DNA from: Micrococcus endophyticus
GTDB taxonomy: Bacteria > Actinomycetota > Actinomycetes > Actinomycetales > Micrococcaceae
NCBI RefSeq assembly: GCF_014205115.1
Contig: NZ_JACHMW010000001.1
Location: 558,001 to 622,000 of the forward strand
Direction of reading: 5' to 3'
DNA length: 64,000 nucleotides
The number at the start of each line of letters is the position of its first letter. The stretch's first letter is position 1. The notes beneath the pieces are model-generated. The model ran no database searches. It was not told the origin of the DNA and saw nothing but the letters and a program-made list of their open reading frames with translations. Below are positions 27,964 to 43,608 of this stretch, piece after piece. Position numbers and translations under genes: made by a program.

Positions 27964-29021
27964 TACGCCGCGAGGCGGTGTAGGCCCTCGTCGATGCTCA
28001 CGGACGGGGTCCAGTCGAGCACTTCGCGGGTGCGGCGCTGGTCGAACCAGTGGGCGGTGGAGAGCTGCTCGGCGAGGAACTCGGTGAGCGGGGGCTCGCC
28101 GTCGTCGGAGCCGACGCCGCGCGATCGCAGGCCGAACAGGTCCCGCTCCCAGGCGCGCTCGATCAGGGCCCCGGCCCGGCGGGCGAGGCCGGCGGGCACG
28201 TGGCGCTCGGGCTCCTCGGCGCCGCCGGCGAGGGCGATCTGGCGGACCAGCTCGCCCACGGGGCGCGGCTCGCCGTTGGTCACCACGAGTGCCTCGCCGT
28301 GGTGGTGGTCGGCCGCGGACACGGCGGCCACCACGGCCTCGACGGCGTTGCCCGTGTAGAGCGTGTCGATCAGCGGCGCGCCGGTGCCCAGCACGGGCAT
28401 CCGCCCGGCGCGCGCCCGCTGCACGATGCGGTCGGTGAGCTGCATGTCCCCGGGGCCCCACATCAGGTGGGGGCGCAGCACCATCACGCGGAAGTCGTCC
28501 CGGTTCGCGGCCAGGGCGAGCCGCTCGCCCGCCGCCTTCGTGCGCGCGTACGGTCCGCGCGCGTGCTCGGGGCTGGCGGGGCCGGCGCCCTCGCCCACGA
28601 TCGAGTCGCCCGCGTGGGCCACCGAGGGGGAGGAGATGTGCACGAACCGGCGCACCCCGTGCCGCTGGGCGGCGTGCAGCAGGATGCGGGTGCCCTCCAC
28701 GTTCACGGCCTCGAACTCGTGCTCGGGACCGGAGACGGAGACCTTCGCGGCCACGTGCACCACGGTGTCCACCCCGGCCACGGCGCGCTCGACGGCGGCC
28801 GGGTCGGTGACCGAGCCCTGCACGTCGCGGGCGCCCGCCACGCCGGAGGGCCGGCGCTGCAGCGTCACGACGTCGTTGCCCGCGTCCGCGAGCACCCGGG
28901 CGACGCCGGCGCCGAGCAGGCCCGAGGCCCCGGTCACCAGGACGCGCCGGCTCTCAAGGCGCTCCACGAGCTCGGGCATGCCCGCCTCGTCGAGGCCGAC
29001 GTCGTAGCCGAACCCGCTCAC
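27948..29021 (-). CDS. oleD: OleD: NAD(P)-dependent 2-alkyl-3-ketoacid reductase
   Basis: The 357-residue short-chain-dehydrogenase-fold enzyme reduces the beta-keto acid made by OleA to the beta-hydroxy acid. The nucleotide motif TGASGLLG is at residues 30–37, and the catalytic Tyr158/Lys162 lie in YARTKAAG with the Ser in HISSPSV. The GTG start at 29021 overlaps the oleBC stop (GTGA), so the genes are translationally coupled. An alternative ATG lies 14 codons downstream (MPELVERL). The order oleA–oleBC–oleD is the olefin cluster described for Micrococcus luteus, in which long-chain olefins are made by head-to-head condensation of fatty acyl-CoA. The 3' end overlaps the small convergent gene by 16 bp. 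Confidence 0.93.
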   Translation of the reverse strand: MSGFGYDVGLDEAGMPELVERLESRRVLVTGASGLLGAGVARVLADAGNDVVTLQRRPSGVAGARDVQGSVTDPAAVERAVAGVDTVVHVAAKVSVSGPEHEFEAVNVEGTRILLHAAQRHGVRRFVHISSPSVAHAGDSIVGEGAGPASPEHARGPYARTKAAGERLALAANRDDFRVMVLRPHLMWGPGDMQLTDRIVQRARAGRMPVLGTGAPLIDTLYTGNAVEAVVAAVSAADHHHGEALVVTNGEPRPVGELVRQIALAGGAEEPERHVPAGLARRAGALIERAWERDLFGLRSRGVGSDDGEPPLTEFLAEQLSTAHWFDQRRTREVLDWTPSVSIDEGLHRLAAYYRAR

Positions 29022-31957
29022 AGCGCGCCTGCCCGTCCGCCGGCCAGCACGCCCTCGGCCCAGCGGGCCACGCGGGCCCGGTCGATCTTCGAGTTGTGCC
29101 GGATGTCGGTGGGGATCTCGTCGGCCACCAGAACGGCGGCCACGGGCAGCGGCTCGAGCGCCGCGCGCACGGCGGAGGCCAGGGCGGTGGGGGCCAGGCC
29201 CTGCTTGGGTCGCCCGTCCCGGTGCTGCCCGGCGCGGCGCGCCGGCCGGGTGGCCGGGACCGCGGCCTCCACCACCACGACGACGGCCTGGGTGCCCCGC
29301 GGGCCCACACCCACCACGGCGCTGCGCCGGACGGGGCCGAGCGCGTCCACGGTCTTCTCGGGGCCGCCGGGGCCGAGCGGCCCCTCGGGGGTGGTGATGA
29401 CATGCTGCAGCCGGCCCTCGAGCCAGACGCGCCCCTCGGCGTCGAAGTGGCCGATGTCCGCGGTGCGGTGCCAGACGCGGCCGTCGCGGCGCCACAGGCC
29501 GTCCCGCTTGCTCTGCTGGTCGGTGTGCCAGAGCGCGTCGTACCGGTCCTTCAGGTGCGGGGCGCTCACCACGATCTCGCCGAGCACGCCGTGGCCCTGG
29601 GCGGGGTCGAGGATGAGGTCCTCGGCGGTGCCGTCCTCGAGCAGCGGGGCGATGGCCAGGGACACCGTGGGCAGGGCGGTGCCCACGCACACGCCCTCGT
29701 CGTCGGCGCCGCGCAGCCGCTGCACGGTCTCGCCGTCGATGTCCGTGAGCAGCAGGCCCTCGGTCATGCCCCACGGCGTGTGGACCTCCGCGTTGGGCAT
29801 GAGGTCCCGGACCTGTCGCATCAACTGGGGGTGCACGGGCGCGCCGGCGGAGAGCACGAGGCGCACCGCGTCCAGGGCGTCCCGACGCGCGGCGTCGAGG
29901 CCGTCGGCGGTGGCGACCACGTTGGCCAGCGCGGCGGGGGAGGCGAAGAGCACGGTGGACTGGCCGGCGATCGCGGCGTCCGCCAGGCTCCGCGCGGTCA
30001 GCGTGGCCGGCTTGGTGACGTCCATGTCCGGGGACACGGAGGCGGCGCCGAGGGCCGGGCCGAGCAGCGCGAAGGGCGCGAACCCGGCCAGGAGCGAGCC
30101 GCCGGGCCGGATGCCCAGGGTCCGGGAGATCATCGTCACGAGGCGGCCCAGGCGCTCGTGCGTGTAGACGACGCCCTTGGCCGGCCCCGTGGAGCCGGAG
30201 GTGAACAGGACGGCGGCGTCCGCGGCGAGGGCGGGCTCGGGCAGCGGGCTCCCGTGCTCGTCCACGGGCTCGCCGACGGCCGGGTCCCGATGCCGCTCGA
30301 TCATGGCGTAGATCGAGTCCGAGACGTCGAGCAGCCGCTTCTGGGCTGCGCCGGGCTCGGTGACGGAGATCCGGGTGCCGGGCCAGGACTGGGCGCGGGC
30401 CAGGGTGAGGCCGGGGGTGCGCCCGATGATCCAGCGCGGCCGGGCGGACTTCATGGCACGGGTCATGCCGGCGATGCCGAGGCCCTGGTCGGCCACCACG
30501 GCCACGCCGCCCACGCGCAGCACCGCGTAGAGCGCGGCGGAGAGGTCGCGGCCCGGGGGCACGAGCATGGCGACGCGGTCGCCCGGGCGCATGCCGGCGG
30601 CCCACAGGCCGGTGGCGATCGCCGAGACGGTCTCGTGGAGCTCGCCCCAGCTCACGGCCACGGGGCGGCGGGCACCGCCCACGAGGGACCGGCCGGTCTG
30701 CGCGCCGGCCATGTCCACGAGGGCGGTGTACTCGCGGTGCTCGGAGCCGGGGGCGCCCCAGTCGCGCAGGTGGTCCCACAGGCGGGCGACGTCGTCGCCG
30801 GCGGGCGCGGCGTGCTCGCCCAGGTCCACGTGGAGCCCGTCCTCGTCCGCCGGGGACGCAGCCGACGCGTGCGGCACGGGCCCGGGCAGGCCCGAGCCGG
30901 GGTCGTCCAGCTGCCCGGCGCGCAGCAGCTGGGCCCACTGCAGCAGGGGGGCGGTGACGTCGCGGTCGTCGACCAGCAGGTGGCCGGCTTCCTCGTAGCG
31001 GTGCACGCGCGCCTGGGGCAGGCGGTCGCGCAGGTCGTCGAGGTAGCGGTCCAGGAACACGGGGTCGTCGGCGCCCCACAGGATGAGCGCGGGCGTGCCG
31101 GCCCGGCCGAGCGCGGAGACGCCCTCCCACACGCGCCGCAGCTCGGCGTGGCTGCCGTGCGAGGGCTCGGCGGGGATGTCCGCCACGAAGCCGCCGACGC
31201 CGCCGCGGCGGTCCGCGGTCTCGTAGGGCAGGTGGTAGGCGGCGCGCACGTCCGAGGCCAGGGCGGGCTTGGCCAGGGAGGTGGTCACGGAGATGAACGC
31301 GTCCGTCAGGACGGTGGAGGCGGGCAGCACGGGCCCGGCCAGGGCGGCCTGCAGGGGCGCCGGGATGGGCGCGCCCTCCGGGTGGTGCACCGCCGTGTTG
31401 AGGGTGGCCACGCCGTCCACGAGCTGCGGGTTGCGGCCCGCCCAGCCGAGGGAGACGACGCCGCCCCAGTCGTGGCCGAGGGTGATCAGCGGGTGTCCGG
31501 TCGCCGCGAGGTCCCGCAGGCCGAGCGTCTCCAGCAGGGCGTCGAGGTCGTCGATGCGCGCGCCGAGGGAGCGGTAGGTGTCGCCGTCACGGCCCATCGA
31601 GGCGGCGGCGGGGTGGCCCGGGTGGGCGAGGCGCTCGGAGAAGCCCATGTCCAGCTGGTCCGGGGCCACCACGCGCCACGCGGCCATGCCGCGCCGGGCG
31701 CGGCGGACGGTCTCGACGAGCAGGGAGCGCCACAGCCAGGACCAGGTGGGGTTGCCGTGCACCGCCACGATGGTGCCCACGATCTCGGCGCCGGCGGCCG
31801 CGAGCACGGGGCCCGTGTCCGCCACGTGCAGGGTGCGCACCGTCCCCTCCGGGTCCGCGGCCGAGCGGATCTCCACGAGGCGGGACCACGCCGGGTCCCA
31901 GCCGGGCAGGCGGTCGGCGGGGGGCAGGACGGCGGGGGCGGCGGGGATCTGCGGCAT
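29018..31957 (-). CDS. oleBC: OleBC fusion: beta-lactone decarboxylase + beta-lactone synthetase
   Basis: The 979-residue fusion performs the last two steps of head-to-head olefin synthesis. Residues 1–345 are the OleB alpha/beta-hydrolase, which decarboxylates the beta-lactone to the cis-olefin: HGNPTW forms the oxyanion region, Asp163 in HDWGG is the nucleophile (as in haloalkane dehalogenases) and His326 is in EEAGHLL. Residues ~380–979 are OleC, an AMP-forming ANL-family enzyme that cyclises the beta-hydroxy acid; it has LFTSGSTGPAKGVVYTH at 584–600, TPWGMTEG and the hinge region RTADIGHFD. An AGAGGAG site precedes the ATG. It starts 22 bp after oleA and overlaps oleD. The fusion is typical of Micrococcus-type clusters. 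Confidence 0.95.
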   Translation of the reverse strand: MPQIPAAPAVLPPADRLPGWDPAWSRLVEIRSAADPEGTVRTLHVADTGPVLAAAGAEIVGTIVAVHGNPTWSWLWRSLLVETVRRARRGMAAWRVVAPDQLDMGFSERLAHPGHPAAASMGRDGDTYRSLGARIDDLDALLETLGLRDLAATGHPLITLGHDWGGVVSLGWAGRNPQLVDGVATLNTAVHHPEGAPIPAPLQAALAGPVLPASTVLTDAFISVTTSLAKPALASDVRAAYHLPYETADRRGGVGGFVADIPAEPSHGSHAELRRVWEGVSALGRAGTPALILWGADDPVFLDRYLDDLRDRLPQARVHRYEEAGHLLVDDRDVTAPLLQWAQLLRAGQLDDPGSGLPGPVPHASAASPADEDGLHVDLGEHAAPAGDDVARLWDHLRDWGAPGSEHREYTALVDMAGAQTGRSLVGGARRPVAVSWGELHETVSAIATGLWAAGMRPGDRVAMLVPPGRDLSAALYAVLRVGGVAVVADQGLGIAGMTRAMKSARPRWIIGRTPGLTLARAQSWPGTRISVTEPGAAQKRLLDVSDSIYAMIERHRDPAVGEPVDEHGSPLPEPALAADAAVLFTSGSTGPAKGVVYTHERLGRLVTMISRTLGIRPGGSLLAGFAPFALLGPALGAASVSPDMDVTKPATLTARSLADAAIAGQSTVLFASPAALANVVATADGLDAARRDALDAVRLVLSAGAPVHPQLMRQVRDLMPNAEVHTPWGMTEGLLLTDIDGETVQRLRGADDEGVCVGTALPTVSLAIAPLLEDGTAEDLILDPAQGHGVLGEIVVSAPHLKDRYDALWHTDQQSKRDGLWRRDGRVWHRTADIGHFDAEGRVWLEGRLQHVITTPEGPLGPGGPEKTVDALGPVRRSAVVGVGPRGTQAVVVVVEAAVPATRPARRAGQHRDGRPKQGLAPTALASAVRAALEPLPVAAVLVADEIPTDIRHNSKIDRARVARWAEGVLAGGRAGAL

Positions 31958-31979
31958 GGGTCTCCTCTGGTCCTTCAGT

Positions 31980-33044
31980 TCACCACTGGATCTCGAGCAT
32001 GGCGGTGTTCAGGCCCGAGCCCACGCCCAGGCACACCACCGTGTCCCCGGCGGACAGCTCGTCCATCTCCCGCACGAGGGTGATGGGCAGCGAGGCCGGC
32101 CCGACGTTGCCCAGCACGGGGAACGTCGTCGGGATCCGGTCCAGGGGCAGGCCGGCGGACTCGGAGATCGCGTTGGTGTGGAGCTGGGAGACCTGGTGGG
32201 TGATGAACCGGTCCGCGTCCTTCCACGCCCACTCGGCGGGGGTGTCGTTCCACGCGTCCATGACGAGCTCGAGGCCGTCGTTGAGCAGGGCGGTGGAGTC
32301 CGTGTACATGCCGCGGTGGTCGCCGACGCACAGGTCGTGGTGGTCGGTGCCGGCGCGGGTGATGCCGCGGACGATCCGGTGGGCGTCCGGGTGGTCCTCG
32401 ATGGAGCCGACGACGGCGGCCGCGGCACCGCAGCCCAGGGTGAGGGAGGCGAACTGCTCCATGAAGTTGCCGCGGTTCGTGGTGGAGGCGTGCAGGTTCT
32501 CCACGGTGGCGTCCTGGACCTTGGAGGCGTCCTCGCTGGCGACGACCACGGCGTAGTCCACCTGGCCCGCGTCCACGAGGGTGGAGGCCATCATCAGGCC
32601 GTTGACGAAGCCGAGGCAGGCGTTGGTGATGTCGAAGTTCGTGGCCGAGGTGGGCAGGCCCATCATGTGGTGGATCCGCACGGCCACGGAGGGCTCGAGG
32701 GTCGCCCGGGTCACCGAGGTGTTGATGAGCAGCCCGACGCGCTCGGGACCGATCCCGGCGGCGGCGAGGGCGGCGGTGCCGGCCTGCGCGGCGGCCTCCT
32801 GGAAGTCCTGGGAGGCGTCCCAGTTGCGCCGGGCGCGCACGCCCGCGACGCGCTGCAGCAGGTGGGGCGGGAGCTTGAGCCGCCGGAGCACGTCCGCCAG
32901 CCGCTCGTCGAGGTCGTCCGAGGTCACCTCGAGGGGCGCCTCGACCTCGGTGACCGCCAGGAGGGCGGCGCGGGAGTACTCGTAGCTGGCGTTGCCGGAC
33001 ACGTTCGTCACCAGGACCAATCTGCGGGAGGACGGGGGACTCAC
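31980..33044 (-). CDS. oleA: OleA: thiolase-fold acyl-CoA condensing enzyme
   Basis: The 354-residue thiolase-superfamily enzyme joins two fatty acyl-CoA chains by non-decarboxylative Claisen condensation to give a 2-alkyl-3-keto acid. The nucleophile Cys143 is in ITNACLGF, the catalytic base Glu117 in TLEPSV, and the His283/Asn313 pair in ITHQVSQ and VLGNVG, all closely matching the numbering known for Xanthomonas OleA. A KAS III (FabH) assignment is less likely because of Glu117 and the ole context. The GTG at 33044 lies inside a perfect palindrome, and a TAGAGT -10 element is 21 bp upstream. It is the first gene of the oleA–oleBC–oleD operon. Confidence 0.93.
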   Translation of the reverse strand: MSPPSSRRLVLVTNVSGNASYEYSRAALLAVTEVEAPLEVTSDDLDERLADVLRRLKLPPHLLQRVAGVRARRNWDASQDFQEAAAQAGTAALAAAGIGPERVGLLINTSVTRATLEPSVAVRIHHMMGLPTSATNFDITNACLGFVNGLMMASTLVDAGQVDYAVVVASEDASKVQDATVENLHASTTNRGNFMEQFASLTLGCGAAAAVVGSIEDHPDAHRIVRGITRAGTDHHDLCVGDHRGMYTDSTALLNDGLELVMDAWNDTPAEWAWKDADRFITHQVSQLHTNAISESAGLPLDRIPTTFPVLGNVGPASLPITLVREMDELSAGDTVVCLGVGSGLNTAMLEIQW

Positions 33045-33143: not shown

Positions 33144-34118
33144 TCAGGGCAGGCCGAGCAGGGCGGCCGCGGTGGCCGCCGGCAGGGCGAGGGAGGCCGC
33201 CGCCACGAGCGCCGCCGCCGCGGCGGGCAGGGGCGCCGGCCGGGTGAGCAGCCGCGCGGCCCGGTCTCCGAGGCCCGCGGAGGTCGGCCCGGTCGCGTCG
33301 GCCTGGCCGGCCGGACCGGCGTCGGGGCCCGGGGCGGCCTGCGCGAGGGCCCGGACGAGCACGTCTGCCGGGGCACGGCGCAGGGCGGCGTCGTCGGCGA
33401 GCATCTCGGTCACCTGGACCACGGCCAGGCGCGCGGTCTCGGCGGTGGGCAGCCACGCGCACGCCCGCGCCCACGCGGCGAAGGCCAGGCGCAGCAGGCC
33501 GTGGTGCTGGTCGAGGTGGGCCCGCTCGTGGGCCACGACGGCGTCCAGCTCCTCCGGCGACAGGCGCGCCAGCAGGCCGCTCGAGACGACGGTGAGGGCC
33601 TCCCCTCCGCGCGGGGAGCCGGGCACGCAGTAGGCCAGCGGGTCGTCGACGGGCAGCTCGCGGGCCCCGCGCGCCCCGCCGGGCCACCGGCCCGCGTCGG
33701 CGGGGCCCGTGGCCACGAGCTCGACGGCGTCCCGGTGGCGGGCCCGGGCCCGCAGGGTGCGGACGGCGGTCACGGCCGTGGTGAGCAGCAGGTGCACCGC
33801 GATCCCGGCCCCGGCGCCCACCGCCATCAGGTGCAGGCCGACGGGCAGGCCGGTGGGCCGCGGCGCGGCGGCGGCGTCGCCGGCCAGGTGCGCGGCCAGC
33901 CGGGGCGCCGCCGCCACGAGGCCCTCGCCCCACGGCAGCAGGCCCCACACGAGGGGCGCGCCCAGCAGGGCGAGTCCGCCGGCGAGGGCGACGGCCTGCC
34001 AGGCGAGGGCGGCGAGCACGGGGGAGCGGGCCGGCCACGCGGCGCGCCCGAGCAGCACGGGCACGGGTCCGGCCAGGGCCACGGCGACGACGGCGAGCAG
34101 CAAGACGGGGACGGACAC
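33144..34118 (-). CDS. M56-family membrane metalloprotease (BlaR1/MecR1-like)
   Basis: The 324-residue membrane protein has hydrophobic helices at the N-terminus (VPVLLLAVVAVALAGPVPVLL, LAALAWQAVALAGGLALL), a third near 100–118, the zinc-protease motif VVAHERAHLDQHH (HExxH) in the cytosolic loop, and a C-terminal helix. It is the gluzincin core of BlaR1/MecR1 without the penicillin-binding sensor domain, so the signal it senses is unknown. Such proteases typically inactivate the adjacent BlaI-type repressor. Its gene begins 18 bp after blaI in the same direction. The nearby operator and the cydABDC genes suggest a respiratory or redox signal rather than beta-lactams. Confidence 0.9.
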   Translation of the reverse strand: MSVPVLLLAVVAVALAGPVPVLLGRAAWPARSPVLAALAWQAVALAGGLALLGAPLVWGLLPWGEGLVAAAPRLAAHLAGDAAAAPRPTGLPVGLHLMAVGAGAGIAVHLLLTTAVTAVRTLRARARHRDAVELVATGPADAGRWPGGARGARELPVDDPLAYCVPGSPRGGEALTVVSSGLLARLSPEELDAVVAHERAHLDQHHGLLRLAFAAWARACAWLPTAETARLAVVQVTEMLADDAALRRAPADVLVRALAQAAPGPDAGPAGQADATGPTSAGLGDRAARLLTRPAPLPAAAAALVAAASLALPAATAAALLGLP

Positions 34119-34136: not shown

Positions 34137-34481
34137 TCAGTCCAGCAGGCGGCGCAGGGCGGCGGAGTCGGTCTCCGAGATGCCGCCCACGAAGGCGGCC
34201 AGGACGGTCTCCCGGTCCGGGGCGGAGCCGAGGAGGTCCCGCAGCAGCTCCGCCGTGTGGGCCTCCCGGGTCACGGCGGCGCGGAAGCGGCGGGGGCGGC
34301 CACCCTCGGCGGGGCGCACGCGGCCCTTGGCCGCCAGCCGGGTGAGGGCCGTGTGGACGGTGGTCAGGGCGGGCGGGGCGCCCTTGCGGTGCAGGAGGGT
34401 GCGGACCTCGGCGGCCGTGAGGCCCTCGGCGTGGTCCCAGAGGAGGTCCATCACGGCGCCTTCGAGGCGGGCGCGGGTCAT
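34137..34481 (-). CDS. blaI: BlaI/MecI/CopY-family repressor
   Basis: The 114-residue dimeric winged-helix repressor starts with LEGAVMDLLWDHAEGLTAAEVRTLL, followed by the recognition helix region PPALTTVHTALTRLAAKGRV, the wing and a C-terminal dimerisation helix; this matches BlaI/MecI in both length and pattern. The ATG at 34481 is preceded by AAGGAGG. It is divergent from cydA and co-directional with the M56 protease, its likely inactivator. A 21-bp palindrome with TACA/TGTA half-sites, typical for this family, lies 79 bp upstream in the shared intergenic region. No beta-lactamase gene is nearby. Confidence 0.92.
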   Translation of the reverse strand: MTRARLEGAVMDLLWDHAEGLTAAEVRTLLHRKGAPPALTTVHTALTRLAAKGRVRPAEGGRPRRFRAAVTREAHTAELLRDLLGSAPDRETVLAAFVGGISETDSAALRRLLD

Positions 34482-34516
34482 GGGTCCTCCTTCGTCTCAC
34501 CGGTGCGTGCCCCCCG

Positions 34517-34522
34517 ATCCTA
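34517..34522 (-). promoter_or_regulatory. -10 element of blaI
   Basis: TAGGAT on the minus strand lies 36 bp upstream of the blaI ATG and 38 bp from the BlaI-type palindrome, so repressor bound there could affect both divergent promoters. Confidence 0.4.
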
Positions 34523-34559
34523 GGCCAGGGGCGCCGGCGAGGCCCGTCGCCGTCGGTCG

Positions 34560-34580
34560 TTTTCTACAACGTGTAGAAAA
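34560..34580. promoter_or_regulatory. BlaI-type operator in the blaI–cydA intergenic region
   Basis: Arms TTTTCTACA and TGTAGAAAA are perfect inverted repeats separated by 3 bp. TACA/TGTA half-sites are the hallmark of BlaI/MecI boxes. The site ends 6 bp before the cydA -10 hexamer, so binding would block cydA transcription. Confidence 0.8.
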
Positions 34581-34586
34581 AGTGGC

Positions 34587-34592
34587 TAGGGT
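34587..34592 (+). promoter_or_regulatory. -10 element of cydABDC
   Basis: TAGGGT lies just downstream of the BlaI-type palindrome, which would occupy the -35 region. The implied leader is about 50 nt before the cydA GTG. Confidence 0.5.
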
Positions 34593-34648
34593 GGACGGGA
34601 CCCTCCGGTCCGTCCCCGCCGGAGCCCGCCTCGTCTCAGGAGCCGTCC

Positions 34649-36229
34649 GTGGATCCCCTCGACCTCGCCCGGTGGCAGTTCGGCATCACGACCGTCTACC
34701 ACTTCCTCATGGTGCCCCTGACCATCGGCCTCGGCCTGGTGGTCGCCGTCATGCAGACCCTCTGGGTGCGCACCGGCCGGGAGCAGTACCTGCGCATGAC
34801 GAAGTTCTGGGGCAAGCTCTTCCTGATCAACTTCATCATGGGCGTGGCCACGGGCATCGTGCAGGAGTTCCAGTTCGGCATGGCCTGGTCCGAGTACTCC
34901 CGGTTCGTGGGCGACGTCTTCGGGGCCCCGCTGGCCCTGGAGGCGCTCATCGCCTTCTTCCTGGAGTCCGTGTTCCTGGGCGTGTGGATCTTCGGCTGGG
35001 GCCGGGTGCCCCGCCGCCTGCACCTGGCGGCCATCTGGTGCGCCGTGATCGGGGCCCACCTGTCCGCGTACTTCATCATGACCGCGAATGCCTTCATGCA
35101 GCATCCGGTGGGCTACGAGGTGGTCGACGGGCGGCCCGTGCTGAACGACATCGGTGCGGTGCTGGCCAACCCCATCGTCCTCACGCACTTCCCCCACACC
35201 ATCGCCGGCTCCTGGGCCGTCGCCGGAGGCTTCCTGCTCGGCATCTCCTGGTACCACCTGTGGAAGCGCCGGCGGGACGGGATCGACACCGTGGACGAGC
35301 ACGGGCGCGTCGTCGTCGGCACCACGGGCTCCAAGGCCCGCGACCGCCTGGACCACCGCGTGTGGATCACGTCCCTGCGCGCCGGCGCCGCGGTGGCGAT
35401 CGTCGGCTTCCTCGGCACCGCCTTCACCGGGCACGCCCAGGCGCAGCAGATGATCGAGTTCCAGCCCACGAAGATGGCCTCCGCCGAGGCCGCGTGCCAC
35501 GACGGCACCGCCTTCTCCGTCCTCACCCTGGGCGACCTGGGCGCGGGCGACCGCACCACCTGCACCGACGTCACCACGGTGATCGAGCTGCCCGGGCTGC
35601 TCTCCTACCTCGCCTACGAGGACTTCACCACCCCCGTGCCCGGCCTGAACTCCCTGCTGCCGGACTTCGAGGAGCGCTACGGCACGCACCTGCCGGACGA
35701 CCCGCTGTACGGCGAGCGCGCCGGAGCGCCCATCGACTACCAGCCGCTCATGGAGGTCACCTACTGGGGGTTCCGCCTCATGATCACCTTCGGCGGCCTC
35801 GGCGCGCTGGCCGGGGCGCTCACCCTCTGGATGACCCGCCGCGGCACGGTCCCCGACTCGCGGGGCTGGACGGCCACCGCCGTCGCCTCCATCGGCGCCC
35901 CCTTTGCGGCGAACGTGGCCGGCTGGGTGTTCACCGAGATGGGCCGGCAGCCCTTCGTGGTCTACCCGAACCCCGCCATGGGCGTCGACGAGGTGTACAT
36001 GTTCACGGCCGCCGCGGTCTCCCCGGGCGTGAGCGCCCAGGAGGTGCTCGCCTCCCTGATCGTGCTCGTGGGGATCTACGCCGTGCTGCTCGTCGTCGAG
36101 GTGGTGCTGATGGTGCGCTACGTGCGCGGCGGCGTGCCCGCCGGCATGCCGGAGCTCACGGCGGACGAGCACCGGGACCCCGACGAGGACCGCCACGACC
36201 GCGACGACGTGCTCGCGTTCGCCTACTGA
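34649..36229 (+). CDS. cydA: Cytochrome bd ubiquinol/menaquinol oxidase subunit I
   Basis: The 526-residue membrane subunit carries the haems of cytochrome bd, which oxidises quinol and reduces oxygen at high affinity. The N-terminus RWQFGITTVYHFLMVPLTIGL has the haem ligand His18; GIVQEFQFGMAWSEYSRFVGDVFGAPLALEAL and FFLESVFLGVWIFGW carry the conserved Gln and Glu residues of the proton path; QPTKMASAEA marks the quinol loop. About nine membrane helices are visible. The GTG at 34649 is preceded by AGGAG at 7 bp. It is the first gene of cydA–cydB–cydDC and is probably repressed by BlaI through the upstream palindrome. Confidence 0.97.
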   Translation: MDPLDLARWQFGITTVYHFLMVPLTIGLGLVVAVMQTLWVRTGREQYLRMTKFWGKLFLINFIMGVATGIVQEFQFGMAWSEYSRFVGDVFGAPLALEALIAFFLESVFLGVWIFGWGRVPRRLHLAAIWCAVIGAHLSAYFIMTANAFMQHPVGYEVVDGRPVLNDIGAVLANPIVLTHFPHTIAGSWAVAGGFLLGISWYHLWKRRRDGIDTVDEHGRVVVGTTGSKARDRLDHRVWITSLRAGAAVAIVGFLGTAFTGHAQAQQMIEFQPTKMASAEAACHDGTAFSVLTLGDLGAGDRTTCTDVTTVIELPGLLSYLAYEDFTTPVPGLNSLLPDFEERYGTHLPDDPLYGERAGAPIDYQPLMEVTYWGFRLMITFGGLGALAGALTLWMTRRGTVPDSRGWTATAVASIGAPFAANVAGWVFTEMGRQPFVVYPNPAMGVDEVYMFTAAAVSPGVSAQEVLASLIVLVGIYAVLLVVEVVLMVRYVRGGVPAGMPELTADEHRDPDEDRHDRDDVLAFAY

Positions 36230-36257
36230 CCCCCGCAGCTGAGAGGACCGAACGAGA

Positions 36258-37280
36258 ATGGCCGAGGCCCTGCCCGTCTTCTGGTACGTGATCATCGCCG
36301 TGCTCTGGCTCGGCTACCTGGCCCTGGAGGGGTTCGACCTCGGCGCGGGCATGCTCATGCAGGCCTGGGCCCGCGACGAGCGGCGCCGCCGGGTGCTGCT
36401 GAACGTGATCGGCCCCGTGTGGGAGGGCAACGAGGTCTGGCTCATCACGGCGATCGGCGCGATGTTCGCGGCGTTCCCGTTCTGGTACGCCTCCCTGCTC
36501 TCCACGCTGTACCTGCCCATGCTGCTGCTCCTGCTCGCCCTGATCCTGCGGGCGGTCTCCATCGAGTACCGCGGCAAGGCGCGCACGGACCGCACGCGGG
36601 CGGTGTGGACCTGGTGCCTGGCCCTGGGCTCCTTCACGGCCGCCTTCGTCGTGGGCGCCTTCCTGGCCCTGACCACCACCGGGCTGCCCATCGACGCGAA
36701 CGGCGACCGCGTGGGCGGGCCCTTCGCGTGGCTCAACGGCTGGGCCGTGCTGGGTGGGCTGGCCGTGGTCGGCTTCTCCATCGCCCAGGCGTGGGCGTTC
36801 ATCGGGCTCAAGACCGACGGCGCCCCGCGGCAGGCGGCCGCCCGCTTCCTCTCGCGCTGGACCCCGGTGGCCCTCGTCCCGCTGCTCGTGTGGGCCGGCG
36901 CCGTCCTGCTGCGTGGCGACCGCCCCTGGACGTGGGCGCTGCTGGCCGCCGGCGTCGCGGCCGCGGCCGGGTCCGTCGTGGCCGCCCGCCGAGGCCGGGA
37001 GGGCCTCGCCCTGGCCGGCCTGACGCTGTTCCTCGTGGCGGCCTGGAGCGCCGTCATGATCGTCCAGTTCCCCGTGCTGCAGCCCTCCACCGTGGACCCG
37101 GCCTTCGACCTCACCGCCGAGATCGCGGCCTCCGGCCCGTACACGCTGGGCATCATGGCCGTCATCAGCCTCGTCTTCGTGCCGATCGTGCTGGCCTACT
37201 CCGCGTGGTCCTACTGGGTGTTCCGCCGTCGCGTGCGCGAGACCCACATCCCCGAGCCCCACGCCGTGGAGCCGGTGTGA
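36258..37280 (+). CDS. cydB: Cytochrome bd oxidase subunit II
   Basis: The 340-residue membrane subunit pairs with CydA. Family features are the N-terminal FWYVIIAVLWLGYLALEGFDLGAGML with the conserved Asp, followed by GPVWEGNEVWLITA and about eight membrane helices, with the C-terminal YSAWSYWVFRRRV. Its length is somewhat shorter than the ~380 residues of E. coli CydB but usual for actinobacteria. A GAGAGGACC site lies upstream of the ATG. It begins 28 bp after cydA and its stop overlaps the GTG start of cydDC (GTGA), so all three are one operon. Confidence 0.97.
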   Translation: MAEALPVFWYVIIAVLWLGYLALEGFDLGAGMLMQAWARDERRRRVLLNVIGPVWEGNEVWLITAIGAMFAAFPFWYASLLSTLYLPMLLLLLALILRAVSIEYRGKARTDRTRAVWTWCLALGSFTAAFVVGAFLALTTTGLPIDANGDRVGGPFAWLNGWAVLGGLAVVGFSIAQAWAFIGLKTDGAPRQAAARFLSRWTPVALVPLLVWAGAVLLRGDRPWTWALLAAGVAAAAGSVVAARRGREGLALAGLTLFLVAAWSAVMIVQFPVLQPSTVDPAFDLTAEIAASGPYTLGIMAVISLVFVPIVLAYSAWSYWVFRRRVRETHIPEPHAVEPV

Positions 37281-40200
37281 CCGACGACGGCGCGCCCCGT
37301 GGGCCAGGCCGCAAGCACGACGACGGCCCCCGGCGCCGCCGCGGCCCCGACCTGAGCCCGGCCGCGCGCCGCGCCGTCGCGGCGATGCTCGGGCTCGCCG
37401 CGCTGCGGGCCGCGGGCTGGATCCTGCTCGCCGAGTCGCTCGCCCGCCTGCTGACCCGCATGGCCGACACGCTCGACCCCGAGGGCACGGCCCAGCTCGT
37501 CGAGATGCTCTTCCTCCCGCCCGCGCCCGTCGGGCCGGTCGGTGCGGCGTCGTCGTTCGCCGGGGCCCTCGCGCTCGGCGCCGCCGGCGTGGGGCTGCGC
37601 GCCCTGGCCGACGCCGGCCAGCGGGTGTGGGGCCGCCGCGCCGCGCTCGGCGTGCAGGTGGGCGTGCGCCGCGACCTCGTGGCCCACCGCCTGGCCTCCG
37701 CGGACGGCTCGCGCCCCCGCTCGGGCGCGGACGCCGTGCTGGTCACCCACGGCCTGCAGGGCCTGGACGACTACTACACCGAGGTCCTGCCGGCCCTGGC
37801 CTCCGCCGCCGTCGTGCCCCCGGTCCTCGGCGCCTGGATCCTCACCCGGGACCCGCTCTCCGCCCTCGTGGTGCTGCTGACCGTCCCGCTCGTGCCGTTC
37901 TTCATGGTCCTCATCGGCCGGCACACCCAGGAGCGGATCGACGCCGCCCAGGACGGGCTGGACCGCCTCTCCGGCCACCTCGTGGAGCTCGCCCGCGGAC
38001 TGCCCGTGCTCGTGGGGCTGCGCCGGGCCGGCGTCCAGCGCCGCGCCCTCGAGCGGGCCTCGCAGCGGTACCACGCCGCCACCCTGGGCACCCTGCGCAC
38101 CGCGTTCGTCTCCGGCATGGCGCTCGAGCTGATCGCCTCGCTCTCCGTGGCCGTGATGGCCGTGTTCATCGGCCTGCGCCTCGTCTACGGGCAGATGGAC
38201 CTCGGTGCCGGGCTCGTGGTCCTCGTCCTGGCCGCCGAGGTGTACCTGCCCCTGCGTGACGTCGGCAGCGCGTACCACGCCTCCGAGGACGGCCGCGAGG
38301 CCGAGGGCCGGGCCCGCGCCGCCGCGCGGGCGCCCGTGCCCGGGGCGGCCCGGGACGCGCTCGCGGACCCCACCGCCGCACCGGCGCGCGCGGCCGGCCC
38401 CGCGGCGGCCCCGCCCGGCGCGGTGGTCCTCGAGGACGTCGGCGTGGCCTTCGGGGACCGGCCCGTCCTGCAGGGCGTGGACCTGCGCGCGGCGCCGGGC
38501 ACGCTCACCGTGCTCGGCTCGGCCTCCGGCACCGGCAAGTCCACCCTCCTGCACCTGCTCGCGGGACTGCTGCGCACCACGGACGCCCGCGTGCAGGGGA
38601 GGGTGAGCGGCGTGGACCCGGACCGCACCGTGTGGGTCGGCCAGCATCCGCGCCTGCTCGAGCCCACGGTGGGCGAGGAGCTCGACGCCGCGGCCGGCCG
38701 GGCGCTTGCGGACTCCGAGCGCGCCGCCGTGCTCGCCGCCGTCGCCCTGGACGGCGCGGCGCACCGGCGGCCCGTGGAGCTCAGCCCCGGCGAGCTGCGG
38801 CGCGTCGCCCTGGCCCGGGCGCTGGCGCGGCTGAGCAACGCCGGCGCGGACCGGCGCCCCTGGCTCGTCCTCCTGGACGAGCCCACCGCCCACCTGGACG
38901 ACGCCGCTGCGGCCGCCGTGCGCGCCGGCGTCGTCGCGCTCGCCCGCGCGGGCGTGCCCGGCCTGGCCCTGCCGCCGTGCACTGTGGTGGCCGCCTCCCA
39001 CGACCCGGCGCTGCAGCGCACCGCGGACGCCCTCGTCGACGCGCAGGGCACGCCCCTGGCCCCGGCCGGGGCCGCGGTCGGCGGCGCCGCGGATCCCGAG
39101 GCCGCCGCGGCCGGCGGCGCCGCGGATCCCGAGGCCGCCACGACGGCCGCCGTCGCCCTGCCGGCCGCGGTCGCCTCGCCGGTCGAGGCGGAGCCCGTCC
39201 CCGCCTCCGCGACCTCCACCGCGCCGTCCCCGGCGGCTGCGCGCCGTGCCCGGACGCGCGCCGCCCTGCGGATCCTGCCGTGGCGCTCGGGCCGGCTGTG
39301 GGCCGGCGTCGCGTGGGCCACGGGGACGCACCTGTCCGCGGCGCTGCTCGCGGGGCTCTCGGGCTGGCTCATCGTCACCGCGGCGGGGCGGCCGCCCGTG
39401 CTGTACCTGCTCTCCGTGATCGTGCTGGTCCGCGCCTTCGGCCTGTCCCGCGCGGTGCTCCGCTACCTGGACCGGCTGGCCACCCACGACGCCGTCCTCG
39501 GCTGGGCCTCCCGGCTGCGGCTGTGGCTGTGGGACGCCCTGGGTCGCCGGCCCGCCCTGTGGGGGCGCCTGAGCCGCGCCGACGGGGCGCTGTCCGTGCT
39601 CGTCGCGGACGTGGACGCCCTGCGGGACGCCGCGCCGCGCGTGATGGTGCCCGTGCCGGCGGCCGTGCTCGCGTGGCTCGTGAGCGCCGGGGCCGTGGCC
39701 CTGCTGGCCCCGGAGCTGGCCGTGGCCGCCCTCGTGCCCGGCGCCCTGGGGCTCGTGGCGATCCCCGTCGTCGTCGCGGCGCTCGACCGGCGCCAGACCC
39801 AGGCGGCCGTGCGCCACCGCGCTGGGATGCTGGACCGGGTCGCGGCCGTGCTCGCCGCCGCCCCGGACCTGCATGGCCTCGGCCGGGCCCGGGCGGCCGC
39901 CGACCGGCTCGCGGAGGCGGACGCCGCCCTGCAGGCGCCCCAGCGCCGGGCGGCGTGGGCCGCGGGCGCCGGCCGGGCGCTGGCGGTCCTCGTCTCCGGG
40001 GGCACCGCGCTGGCCGTGGCCCTGACGGCCACCCAGACCGGCACCGCCGCGGCCGTCGCCGCCTTAGCGGTGCTGCTCGTCCTGTCCTGGGCGGAGCCCT
40101 ACGGGGCCCTCGCCCAGTCCGCCCAGGAGCTGGGCACCCTGGCGTCCCAGGCGCGCGCCGCGGCCGACCTGCTGGGCGAGGACGAGCCCGGCACCGCGGT

Positions 40201-41005
40201 CCCGGACGCAGCGGACCCGGGCCGGGCCTCGGCCACGCCCGACCCGACGTCCGCCTCGATGTCCGCCGACTCGGAGCCGGCGGCGCCCGTGCGCGTCACG
40301 GGCCTGGTCCTGCGCGGCGCGGCCGTCCGCTTCGAGGGCGCGGACGCGCCGCTCTGGAGCGGCGTCGACCTGCGCGTCGAGCCGGGGCAGACCGCCGTCG
40401 TCACCGGTCCCTCCGGCGCGGGCAAGTCCACCCTGCTGGCCGTGCTGCTGGGGTTCCAGCCGCTGGCCGAGGGCGCCTACCTGCTGCGCACCGAGTCGGA
40501 CGGGCGCCGCGTCGAGGCACCCGCGGACGCGGCGGCGCTGGCGCGCGTGGCGTGGACGCCGCAGGACGCGCTCCTGTTCGACTCCAGCCTGCGCGGCAAC
40601 CTGGCGCTCGCCCGGGATCCCGAGGACGCCCCGGACGACGCGGAGCTCACCGCGGTGCTCGAGCGCGTCGGCCTCGGCCCCTGGCTGGCCGCGGCCCCGG
40701 AGGGACTGGACACGCCCGTGGGCGCCGGCGGCCGCGTGCTCTCGGGAGGCCAGCGCCAGCGCCTGGCCGTGGCGCGCGCCCTCGTGGCCCGGGCCGACGT
40801 CGTGCTCCTGGACGAGCCCACCGCGCACGTGGGCCAGGACGAGGCCCTGGCCCTGATGGCGGACCTGCGCGCGGCCCTGGCCGGGCGGATCGCCGTGGTG
40901 GTCACCCACGACGAACGCCTGGCCGCGGAGGCCGACGTGCGGCTGCGCCTGGGCGTCAGTCCGCCGAGACCGTCACGGGGTCGTCCGCGACCGGCAGCGC
41001 GCTGA
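37277..41005 (+). CDS. cydDC: CydDC fusion: heterodimer-type ABC exporter for cytochrome bd assembly
   Basis: The 1242-residue protein joins both halves of CydDC in one chain. Each half has a six-helix membrane domain and an ATPase domain: the first Walker A is [10 protein letters not shown] at about 414, with signature [15 protein letters not shown] and Walker [13 protein letters not shown]; the second Walker A is GPSGAGKST at about 1044, with [15 protein letters not shown] and [12 protein letters not shown]. CydDC is needed for cytochrome bd maturation and has been reported to export thiols and, more recently, to transport haem. The fused form is common in actinobacteria. The linker at about 595–665 is Ala/Glu-rich and contains a duplicated GGAADPEAA unit. 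It is translationally coupled to cydB, and its 3' end overlaps convergent parC by 50 bp. Confidence 0.95.
39080..39139 (+). repeat. Duplicated 27-bp segment in the cydDC linker
   Basis: An identical 27-bp segment occurs at 39080–39106 and 39113–39139 with a 33-bp period. It encodes the repeated GGAADPEAA unit between the two transporter halves and is a site where linker length could vary. Confidence 0.85.
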
Positions 41006-43559
41006 GCAGCTCGGGGGAGGCCCCGGCGCCGACGGCCTCGATGCGCTGGTCCACGGGCACGCCCGAGCCGTCGCGGCGCCCGTACTCGACCGGCAGCGCC
41101 CGGGCCACGCCGGCCTTCGAGGCGGCCAGCGCGGGGCCGGCGCCCACCCAGCCGAGCACGAGGGACGTCTCGCCCTTGAGCAGCCGGTGCGCGCGCACGC
41201 CGCCGGTGCCGCGCCCCTTGGCCGGGTACTCGCCCAGGGGCGTGACCTTCACGGAGCCGCCGGCGGAGCCGAGCAGATCGCCCTCGCCGTCCGTCACCGT
41301 CACCACGACGGCGGGGCGCGGGTGGGCGGCCGCGTCGTCGCCGGAGCCGGTGAGGGAGGCGGCGGGGGCCACGCCGAAGGTGAGGACCGCGTCGTCGGCG
41401 GCCACCCGCAGGCCGGCCACGCCGCCGGCGGCCGGACCCTGGGGGCGGACCGCGGACGCGGCGTAGCGCAGCAGCTGCCCGGCGCGGGTGAGGAAGACCA
41501 ACTGGTCCTCGTCGTCCACGGCTGGGGCGGCGCCGACCACCGCGTCGCCGTCCTTGAGGGCGATCGCCTCCGCCACCTCGCGGTTCAACGGCCACTCGGG
41601 GCGCACCCGCTTGACCACGCCCTGGGCGGTGCCGAGGGCGATCACGGCGTCCAGGGGCACGAGCGCCACGAGGCTCTCGCCCTTGCCGAGGGGCACCAGC
41701 TCCTTGGCGGGGACGGACCCGGTCATCGCCGGGGCCGCGGAGGGCTCGGGCGCGGCGGGCAGGTCCACGGCCTGGATCCGGTGCAGCGCGCCCGTGGAGG
41801 TGAGGGCGCCGATCTCACCGCGGGCCGTCGTCGCCACCACGGAGGCGAAGGCGTCGTGCTTGCGGCGCCGCCCCTGCGAGGCGATCGGGGTGCGGTCGGC
41901 GGTGCGCAGCAGGCGCCCGGAGGTGGTGAGCACGGCCCAGCAGGCGGTGTCCGGGACCATGAGGTCCGCCCCGGCCTGGGCGGCCCCGGCGGGGGTGGGC
42001 CCGCCGGCGGTCGAGGCGGCGGGGGCGGCCACGGTCTCGGCCTCGAGCAGGACGGTGCGGCGGTCGTCGCCGAACTCGTCGGCCACGGCCTGCAGCTCGG
42101 CGGAGACCACCTCGCGCAGGCGCGCCTCCGAGCCGAGGATCGCCTCGAGCTCGGCGATGGCGGCCTGCAGCTCGTCCCGCTCGGCCTCGAGCTCGATCCG
42201 GGAGAACTTCGTGAGCTGGCGCAGGCGCAGCTCGAGGATGTGGTCCGCCTGCACCTGGGTGAGGTCGAAGACCCCCATCAGCCGGGTGCGCGCGGCGGCC
42301 GTGTCGTCCGAGGAGCGGATGATCTCGATGACCTCGTCGATGTCCACGAGGGCGAGCAGCAGGCCCTCCACGAGGTGGAGGCGGTCCTGGCGGCGCTGCA
42401 GCCGGTGGGCGGTGCGGCGGCGGACCACGTCGAGGCGGTGGTCCACGTAGACGCGCAGCAGCGGCAGCAGGCCCAGGGTCTGCGGCTGGCCGTCCACGAG
42501 GGCGACGTTGTTGATGCCGAAGGTCTCCTCGAGCGGCGTGTGCCGGTAGAGGGCGGCGAGCACGGCCTGCGGGTTGAAGCCCGACTTCAGCTCGATCTGC
42601 AGGCGCAGCCCGTTCTTGCGGTCCGTGAGGTCCACGACGTCGGCGATGCCGCTGAGCTTCTTCGCGTCGACGCCGGCCTTGATCCGCTCGATGACCTTCT
42701 CCGGACCCACGGCGTACGGCAGCTCGGTGACCACGAGCCCGGTCCGGCGCGCCGAGACCTGCTCCACGGCGACGGCGGCGCGCATCCGGAAGGTGCCCCG
42801 GCCGGTGGCGTAGGCGTCGCGCACCCCGTCCAGCCCCACGATCCGGCCGCCCGAGGGCAGGTCGGGGCCCGGGATGTGCGCCATGATCGCCTCGAGGTCG
42901 GCCTCGGGGTCGGCGAGCAGGTGGCGGGCGGCCGCCACCACCTCGCGCAGGTTGTGCGGGGCCATGTTCGTGGCCATGCCGACGGCGATGCCCGTGGTGC
43001 CGTTGACCAGCAGGTTCGGGTACGCGGCGGGCAGGACGGCGGGCTGCTGGAACTGGTTGTCGTAGTTGGGGACGAAGTCCACCGTGTCCTCGTCGAGGTC
43101 CGCGGTGAGCGCCAGGGCGGCCGGCGCCATGCGGGCCTCCGTGTAGCGCGGGGCCGCGGGGCCGTCGTCGAGCGAGCCGAAGTTGCCGTGCCCGTCCACC
43201 ACGGGCAGGCGCAGGGAGAACGGCTGGGCCAGGCGGACCATCGCGTCGTAGATCGCGGCGTCGCCGTGGGGGTGCAGCTTGCCCATCACCTCGCCCACCA
43301 CGCGGGCGGACTTCACGTGGCCGCGGTCCGGGCGCAGCCCCATCCGGGACATCATGTAGAGGATGCGCCGCTGCACCGGCTTGAGCCCGTCGCGGGCGTC
43401 CGGCAGGGCGCGGGAGTAGATCACCGAGTAGGCGTACTCGAGGAACGAGGCCTCCATCTCCTCGGAGACGTCGACGTCGACGATGTTCTCCTGCTCCAGC
43501 GGGAGCGGGCGCGCGACGTCCTGCTCGGAGGGGCGGGAACGGGAAGAACGGGACATCAT
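40956..43559 (-). CDS. parC: Type IIA topoisomerase subunit A (ParC/GyrA)
   Basis: The 867-residue DNA-cleaving subunit has the active-site Tyr in [10 protein letters not shown], the conserved [12 protein letters not shown] and the helix-turn-helix [21 protein letters not shown]; the position matching GyrA Ser83 is Ala. The C-terminal third is a beta-pinwheel with degenerate repeats ([40 protein letters not shown]), but no full GyrA box QRRGGKG is seen, which fits ParC better than GyrA. The first of two adjacent ATGs (43559) is chosen; the frame is open a little further. Its partner ParE is encoded 13.5 kb away. The 3' end overlaps cydDC by 50 bp, and the 5' end faces the GNAT fusion gene with 49 bp between. 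Confidence 0.92.
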
Positions 43560-43595
43560 GGTGCTCGGGGAGTCCTCACGGCGTCGGGGATTGTC

Positions 43596-43601
43596 TAGGG
43601 T
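43596..43601 (+). promoter_or_regulatory. -10 element of the GNAT fusion gene (leaderless)
   Basis: TAGGGT ends 7 bp before the ATG at 43609. On the opposite strand the overlapping GACAAT at 43590–43595 could be the parC -10 element. Confidence 0.55.
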
Positions 43602-43608
43602 GAATCCT

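Follow-up and report, generated by a model that had tools for sequence, protein, structure and literature searches.

A BlaI-family repressor and a sensorless M56-like protease are predicted to control cytochrome bd through a conserved dyad in Micrococcus and its relatives

In a 64,000-nucleotide stretch of the Micrococcus endophyticus genome (contig NZ_JACHMW010000001.1, positions 558,001 to 622,000; hereafter the window, whose own numbering we use), the gene for a BlaI-family repressor, blaI (34137–34481, minus strand), and the gene for cytochrome bd subunit I, cydA (34649–36229, plus strand; PF01654, GTG start), are divergently transcribed from either side of a 167-bp gap. The initial annotation of this DNA had described the divergent pair correctly and had proposed that BlaI and the M56-type protease encoded beside it control cytochrome bd through a palindrome in the gap, a proposal that comparison with relatives in two bacterial families now supports. 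On this comparative evidence, BlaI very likely regulates cydA through the dyad at 34560–34580. We also consider probable the fuller reading, in which BlaI represses cydA at the dyad and the M56 protease, which has no penicillin sensor, releases it by cleavage in response to a respiratory signal. Its parts differ in strength: that control is by repression appears quite likely from the position of the site and the family of the protein, release through cleavage by the M56 protease is the outcome we would lean toward, and the respiratory nature of the signal is a guess that could go either way.

The candidate BlaI operator, TTTTCTACA-ACG-TGTAGAAAA (34560–34580, no strand), was recognized from its arms and from the comparison with relatives. 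Its two 9-nucleotide arms, TTTTCTACA (34560–34568) and TGTAGAAAA (34572–34580), are perfect inverted copies of each other. The 21-bp perfect palindrome originally described therefore stands as a 21-bp dyad with perfect arms but not as a palindrome from end to end, because the 3-nucleotide centre is imperfect. A candidate cydA -10 hexamer, TAGGGT (34587–34592, plus strand), begins after a gap of 6 bp, the distance first reported, and 8 bp after the 17-mer; because of this placement, the dyad would cover the -35 region of cydA. BlaI and MecI operators are inverted repeats with TACA and TGTA half-sites, like the Micrococcus dyad. In the window's genome (G000; 2.71 Mb, single contig) the 15-mer core TCTACANNNTGTAGA occurs exactly once. 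With up to two mismatches it occurs once in the window, and 8 of 100 shuffles contain at least one such occurrence. A second near-match to the palindrome, with one mismatch, lies at G000:C1:832254.

Of the 295 genomes in the window's family, 251 match for a BlaI homologue and 261 for CydA. We assembled 102 cydA loci from 23 genera, comprising 6 from the genus and 96 upstream regions (at most 12 per genus) that were chosen from the better-scoring matches listed before their upstream sequences were inspected. Within 250 bp of cydA, TTCTACRNNNYGTAGAA is present exactly in 97 of these loci and with one mismatch in 2; the remaining three belong to the Micrococcus genomes without blaI. None of 485 control windows drawn from these regions comes within two mismatches of TTCTACRNNNYGTAGAA, and neither does any of 25 further cydA loci (22 from genus g3, 3 from g6) taken from genomes outside the 251 matched by BlaI. 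The site thus precedes cydA in 99/99 loci whose genome encodes a BlaI homologue and in 0/28 whose genome does not (Fisher p 9e-29, uncorrected for kinship). The initial annotation had singled out absence of the palindrome at cydA in relatives keeping both loci as one finding that would speak against it, and we saw this in none of the 99 family loci. Counted by genome, 148 of 295 family members, none of them in g3, contain the exact form TTCTACANNNTGTAGAA, against 13 (manual count) for the reversed pattern. More than one exact site (two or three) is present in 52 of the 97 loci, most commonly at a spacing of 24 or 25 bp. A TANNNT hexamer follows the first site by 7 or 8 bp in 15 of the 97 loci and the last site in 11 (counts made with no formal control), a position that suits repression at the promoter. 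Two genomes, G148 (L146, L147) and G273 (L079, L080), have two cydA loci each, and every copy carries an exact upstream site.

Because blaI is divergent from and adjacent to cydA in 89 of the 99 loci, the dyad could in principle be an operator for blaI and the protease gene only, lying near cydA through divergence and leaving cydA outside its targets. BlaI-type repressors often autoregulate (PMC8457756), and the site also precedes blaI in four loci that lack an adjacent cydA (L164, L255, L267, L293). Ten cydA loci from nine genomes, however, have no blaI within 3.5 kb upstream and a BlaI homologue elsewhere in the genome, which in three genomes of genus g12 is a weak match (E 3e-10 to 9e-9); all ten keep the exact site. 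Their sites would serve something besides blaI autoregulation, and we regard them as the strongest argument that cydA is a target. The 6-bp distance to the candidate cydA -10 and the presence of the site before hemQ and hmp in relatives, distant from blaI, likewise argue against autoregulation as the sole function, which we judge very unlikely.

Within the genus, the site and the repressor are present or missing together. Among 11 same-genus genomes compared, six have cydA and three have a clear blaI (G000, G003 and G006; the G003 protein is 97% identical). All three carry the palindrome upstream of cydA, the G003 copy differing at one base. In G001, G004 and G005, which have cydA and no blaI–M56 pair, OleA is encoded directly upstream of cydA, and the nearest resemblance to the site has at least 5 mismatches. 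In the loci examined from genera g2, g4, g16 and g21, OleA, the M56 protease and BlaI are all encoded upstream of cydA, and we therefore read the Micrococcus loci without blaI as a joint loss of switch and operator. The other five genomes (G002, G007, G008, G009 and G010) gave no CydA match and no convincing BlaI match, the marginal BlaI matches in G007 and G008 (E 8e-4 and 6e-4) containing internal stops. Cytochrome bd thus looks dispensable in the genus.

The pattern recurs in a second family, f4, which is probably Microbacteriaceae and in which 114 of 150 genomes have a CydA match. Thirty f4 loci among the matches listed were scored: the site is present within one mismatch in 24 of 26 with an adjacent blaI and in 0 of 4 classed as without blaI, a class defined by its absence within 1.5 kb and not from the whole genome. 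Five loci with names assigned (Microbacteriaceae or Microbacterium) show the same blaI–M56/cydA arrangement. Among 80 named loci, 63 combine a divergent CydA, an M56 protease and the exact site, 2 have a divergent CydA and no exact site, and 15, all titled Nesterenkonia, have no CydA beside blaI. One locus, L303, is titled Sporosarcina beigongshangi and carries an Arthrobacter-like blaI–M56/cydA arrangement; a mislabelled or contaminating contig is likely.

We also followed the two characters on a CydA tree of 125 rows, from which L302 (the same genome as G003), rows shorter than 350 amino acids and the majority of the 102 family loci (for each of which about 100 CydA residues were to hand) were excluded. 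The tree implies 8 changes of state for blaI and 10 for the site; in five supported independent pairs the site follows blaI in 4.5 on average and never runs the opposite way. An alternative is that a different transcription factor owns the dyad and that blaI is a passenger of the locus. Actinobacteria do have several regulators of cydABDC, such as SigC, HrrA and OxyR in Corynebacterium glutamicum (PMC7337898), but the site tracks blaI in both families, is absent from all 28 and all 4 loci that lack it, precedes blaI itself in relatives and persists at cydA when blaI is not adjacent. We consider ownership by another factor highly improbable. One named candidate, Rex, was set aside because its half-site differs.

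Several observations weigh against control of cydA by BlaI at this dyad or against the fuller reading. A sigma-70 scan calls no promoter in 34450–34700, and TAGGGT is a weak -10. The cydA site is the only exact one in the window's genome, so any wider regulon is a property of the relatives. The window protease matches the M56 profile PF05569 weakly (15.6 bits against a cut-off of 31). Two of the 26 f4 loci with blaI lack a site within one mismatch. When the tree test is limited to supported branches, p is 0.0625 (there are eight pairs if unsupported branches are counted). Class-wide, TWCTACANNNTGTAGWA is not enriched, occurring in 14 of 394 genomes against 23 (manual count) for the reversed control. 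Finally, a 9-nucleotide arm (gap 0–8) arises in 63 of 5000 mononucleotide shuffles of the 167-bp gap; taken from this single sequence, the dyad is moderately improbable, suggestive only and not decisive. The shuffles leave room for a chance inverted repeat, yet this explanation becomes negligible against the exact relaxed motif at nearly all family cydA loci, its absence from the control windows and the repetition of the pattern in a second family.

Nine loci from the class-wide search lie outside the window's family (L382, L385–L392). Three of them adjoin blaI (L386, L387, L392), and in L387 and L392 the dyad also adjoins a CydA-family gene; L382, L385 and L390 have unrelated gene contexts. 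In the last three, all from family f24 (L388, L389, L391), a TACTACANNNTGTAGTA dyad immediately precedes the gene for a Rieske-like protein, which we identified by eye.

The sites at genes other than cydA may point to the process under control. We examined 80 sites in 71 relatives' loci, taken from the matches listed and not as a random sample, and assigned a candidate gene to 77; no accepted gene lies near the sites in L261, L262 and L287, and L214 and L260 represent one site counted twice. Candidate genes were identified by Pfam for representatives and by BLAST to these representatives for the others. Eighteen of the 77 sites belong to CydA, a CydA paralogue or blaI; of the other 59, 37 precede genes of respiration, heme or nitric oxide (NO) metabolism, many of which are orthologues and hence not independent. 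The 37 comprise ChdC/HemQ (15 sites), flavohemoglobin (hmp, 11), TlpA-like thioredoxin (3) and SdhC (2), with single sites at ResB, UbiA/CtaB-like, COX2, SURF1 and HemA/HemE genes and at an ATP-synthase operon. Other sites neighbour genes for a SufR-like regulator with an ABC protein, a universal stress protein, isocitrate lyase, CopD, glutathione peroxidase and a DsbA-like protein, as well as genes without assigned function. The earlier suggestion of a respiratory or redox signalling module is strengthened by these sites at heme, NO-detoxification, oxidase and ATP-synthase genes. Because relatives carry the site before heme, flavohemoglobin, oxidase, succinate-dehydrogenase and ATP-synthase genes, we favour regulation of respiration as the role of the BlaI–M56 pair over that of a switch for beta-lactam resistance.

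Three Nesterenkonia-group genomes have 11, 12 and 16 exact sites; the reversed control gave 0 in all 12 genomes searched. These numbers suggest that the predicted BlaI regulon may be much enlarged in this group. In G236 (L262–L276), G022 (L282–L291) and G227 (L299–L301), sites stand before hemQ-like, sdhC, ctaB-like and COX2 genes, and in the same loci also before SURF1, TlpA-like and SufR-like/ABC genes and a second type of cydA. Two further loci from Nesterenkonia-group genomes, L166 and L167, have no exact site.

Both proteins have features compatible with a repressor–protease pair. BlaI (114 amino acids) scores 64.5 bits against PF03965, well above the cut-off of 22.6, and is the sole PF03965 protein found in the window's genome. 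Among solved structures, 2g9w (E 2.7e-25), which we take to be M. tuberculosis BlaI, is the nearest to the BlaI family here; BlaI also gave phmmer matches to pentatricopeptide chains, disregarded because they depend on summed repeats. A phenylalanine in the C-terminal region (aligned-row position 96, residue 97) is invariant in 16 of 16 sequences and, matched by position and not by alignment, falls in the region cut by BlaR1, which cleaves Staphylococcus aureus BlaI between Asn101 and Phe102 (PMC9834060).

The protease gene (33144–34118, minus strand), which falls slightly beyond the span given in the initial annotation, encodes 324 amino acids with four hydrophobic segments and the zinc-site residues H197-E-x-x-H201, E238 and D242. 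The protein contains HExxH and passes the M48 profile PF01435; across 25 aligned members, 21 match PF05569 at E ≤ 0.01, the best at 1.1e-7. H197, E198, H201, E238 and D242 are invariant in all 25, as is R286, and their spacing equals that of the BlaR1 zinc site (HEXXH 201–205, with H201 and H205; E242, D246; BlaR1 positions from PMC9834060). No penicillin-binding or beta-lactamase Pfam domain was reported for the 324 residues, which agrees with the original description of an M56 protease lacking a penicillin-binding sensor. Searching solved structures with the protease alone returned only an HtpX homologue (E 0.13), and BlaR1 chains are matched weakly in a profile comparison (E 0.28 and 0.59). 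Cys164, which sits in a conserved AYC-x-P stretch ahead of the zinc site, is also invariant in the 25 members and could be a redox-sensing residue.

The scheme that we favour is as follows. A BlaI dimer would bind the dyad at 34560–34580 and block the cydA promoter by covering its -35 region, and would probably also repress blaI and the protease gene from the other side of the dyad. The membrane-embedded M56 protease may respond to the state of the respiratory chain or of the membrane, for example when a heme-copper oxidase is blocked, when the quinol pool is over-reduced or when NO is present. Once triggered, it would inactivate BlaI by cleaving it, as BlaR1 does in S. aureus, and cydABDC would be derepressed.

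The identity of the signal is where a further explanation enters. BlaI could control cydA through the dyad while the protease senses envelope or cell-wall stress, including penicillins, with cytochrome bd serving antibiotic tolerance. BlaI and BlaR homologues have been linked with beta-lactam stress, and M. tuberculosis co-induces blaI–blaR and cydAB under amoxicillin–clavulanate (PMC5473688). Against this stand the missing penicillin-binding domain of the protease and the other sites that could be identified, which lie at respiratory and heme genes and never at cell-wall genes. The neighbours examined (the ole, cydDC and gyrase/topoisomerase genes) also include no beta-lactamase and no resistant penicillin-binding protein; the earlier statement that no beta-lactamase is nearby is borne out for these neighbours, the remaining window and genome not having been searched for one. 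We regard an envelope-stress signal as unlikely.

The pair resembles M. tuberculosis BlaI (Rv1846c) and BlaR (Rv1845c) in combining a BlaI-family repressor with a BlaR homologue that has no extracellular sensor and in its predicted link to cytochrome bd. M. tuberculosis BlaI is described at the cytochrome-bd and ATP-synthase promoters, and mycobacterial BlaR as lacking the extracellular sensor, both with reference to Sala et al. 2009 (PMC5473688). BlaI lowers expression of Rv1303, in the ATP-synthase operon, and binds its promoter (PMC12565901), and blaI has been named a regulator of the atp operon (PMC5874750). The systems differ in that cydA is here the divergent neighbour of blaI, with a site kept across two families, and in that regulation of blaC is also reported for the mycobacterial protein. 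Of the two sites of a mycobacterial-type regulon, the one at cydA is present in all 99 family loci with a BlaI homologue; a single atp-operon site was seen, in G018, a genome of another genus (L280; AtpB, PF00119, two genes downstream), and the window's genome has the cydA site only.

The S. aureus BlaR1–BlaI (MecR1–MecI) system shares the repressor–protease pairing and the HExxH...E...D zinc-site spacing, but the window protease has no penicillin-binding sensor and the predicted target is cytochrome bd instead of beta-lactamase or PBP2a (penicillin-binding protein 2a). The CopY/TcrY copper repressors share a superfamily fold with the window BlaI, which nevertheless scores only 22.2 bits against TIGR02698, far below its cut-off of 121.95. 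CopY carries a cysteine metal site; the window BlaI contains no cysteine and therefore cannot carry such a site. SigC and HrrA act at cydABDC of C. glutamicum, where SigC and HrrSA control the same operon and have overlapping heme and oxidase targets (PMC7337898). The same source speculates that the SigC stimulus is defective electron transfer at the aa3 oxidase. Unlike the pair considered here, SigC is an extracytoplasmic function sigma factor and HrrSA a two-component system. Among the literature matches listed, in a search largely without subscription journals, we recognized no paper on BlaI and cydA outside mycobacteria, and the parts available of PMC4301838, PMC4757040, PMC7924339, PMC8765290 and PMC10581053 gave no operator sequence.

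More broadly, we tentatively suggest, as an idea that we hold to be somewhat doubtful, that BlaI and a sensorless M56 protease form an old and widespread actinobacterial sensor of respiratory status. Such a pair would read the electron-transport chain in the membrane and cleave BlaI, releasing cytochrome bd, heme, NO-detoxification and oxidase genes, and the beta-lactam systems would be a specialised branch that gained a penicillin-binding domain. For a regulator family named after penicillinase repression, the comparison yields an operator at the sequence level and predicts a regulon, in no fewer than two families of actinobacteria. It suggests why BlaR-like proteases that lack a sensor persist where no beta-lactamase gene adjoins them. 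It also supplies a clean model of how BlaI and respiration are linked in mycobacteria, and harmless bacteria of soil and skin could be used to ask which signal a sensorless M56 protease perceives.

Along the window, the order of genes is oleA, the M56-like protease gene and blaI on the minus strand, then the gap, followed on the plus strand by cydA, cydB (cytochrome bd subunit II, 36258–37280; PF02322) and a gene for a fused CydD–CydC exporter (37277–41005), both halves of which exceed NCBIfam cut-offs. The protease gene lies 18 nucleotides from blaI, with blaI upstream, and the two probably form a single operon; cydDC is likewise probably co-transcribed with cydAB, given the overlap between cydB and cydDC. 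The locus is adjoined at 29018–33044 by genes resembling oleA and a fused oleBC (the latter with hydrolase and AMP-binding domains), an arrangement like that of hydrocarbon (olefin) synthesis clusters. Beyond cydDC, at 40956–43619, lies a gene for a gyrase/topoisomerase IV A subunit. In the Nesterenkonia-group genome G022 (L164), blaI–M56 comes after a topoisomerase IV/gyrase A-like gene, identified by eye, an order that would fit a loss of cydABDC from between the two in Nesterenkonia.

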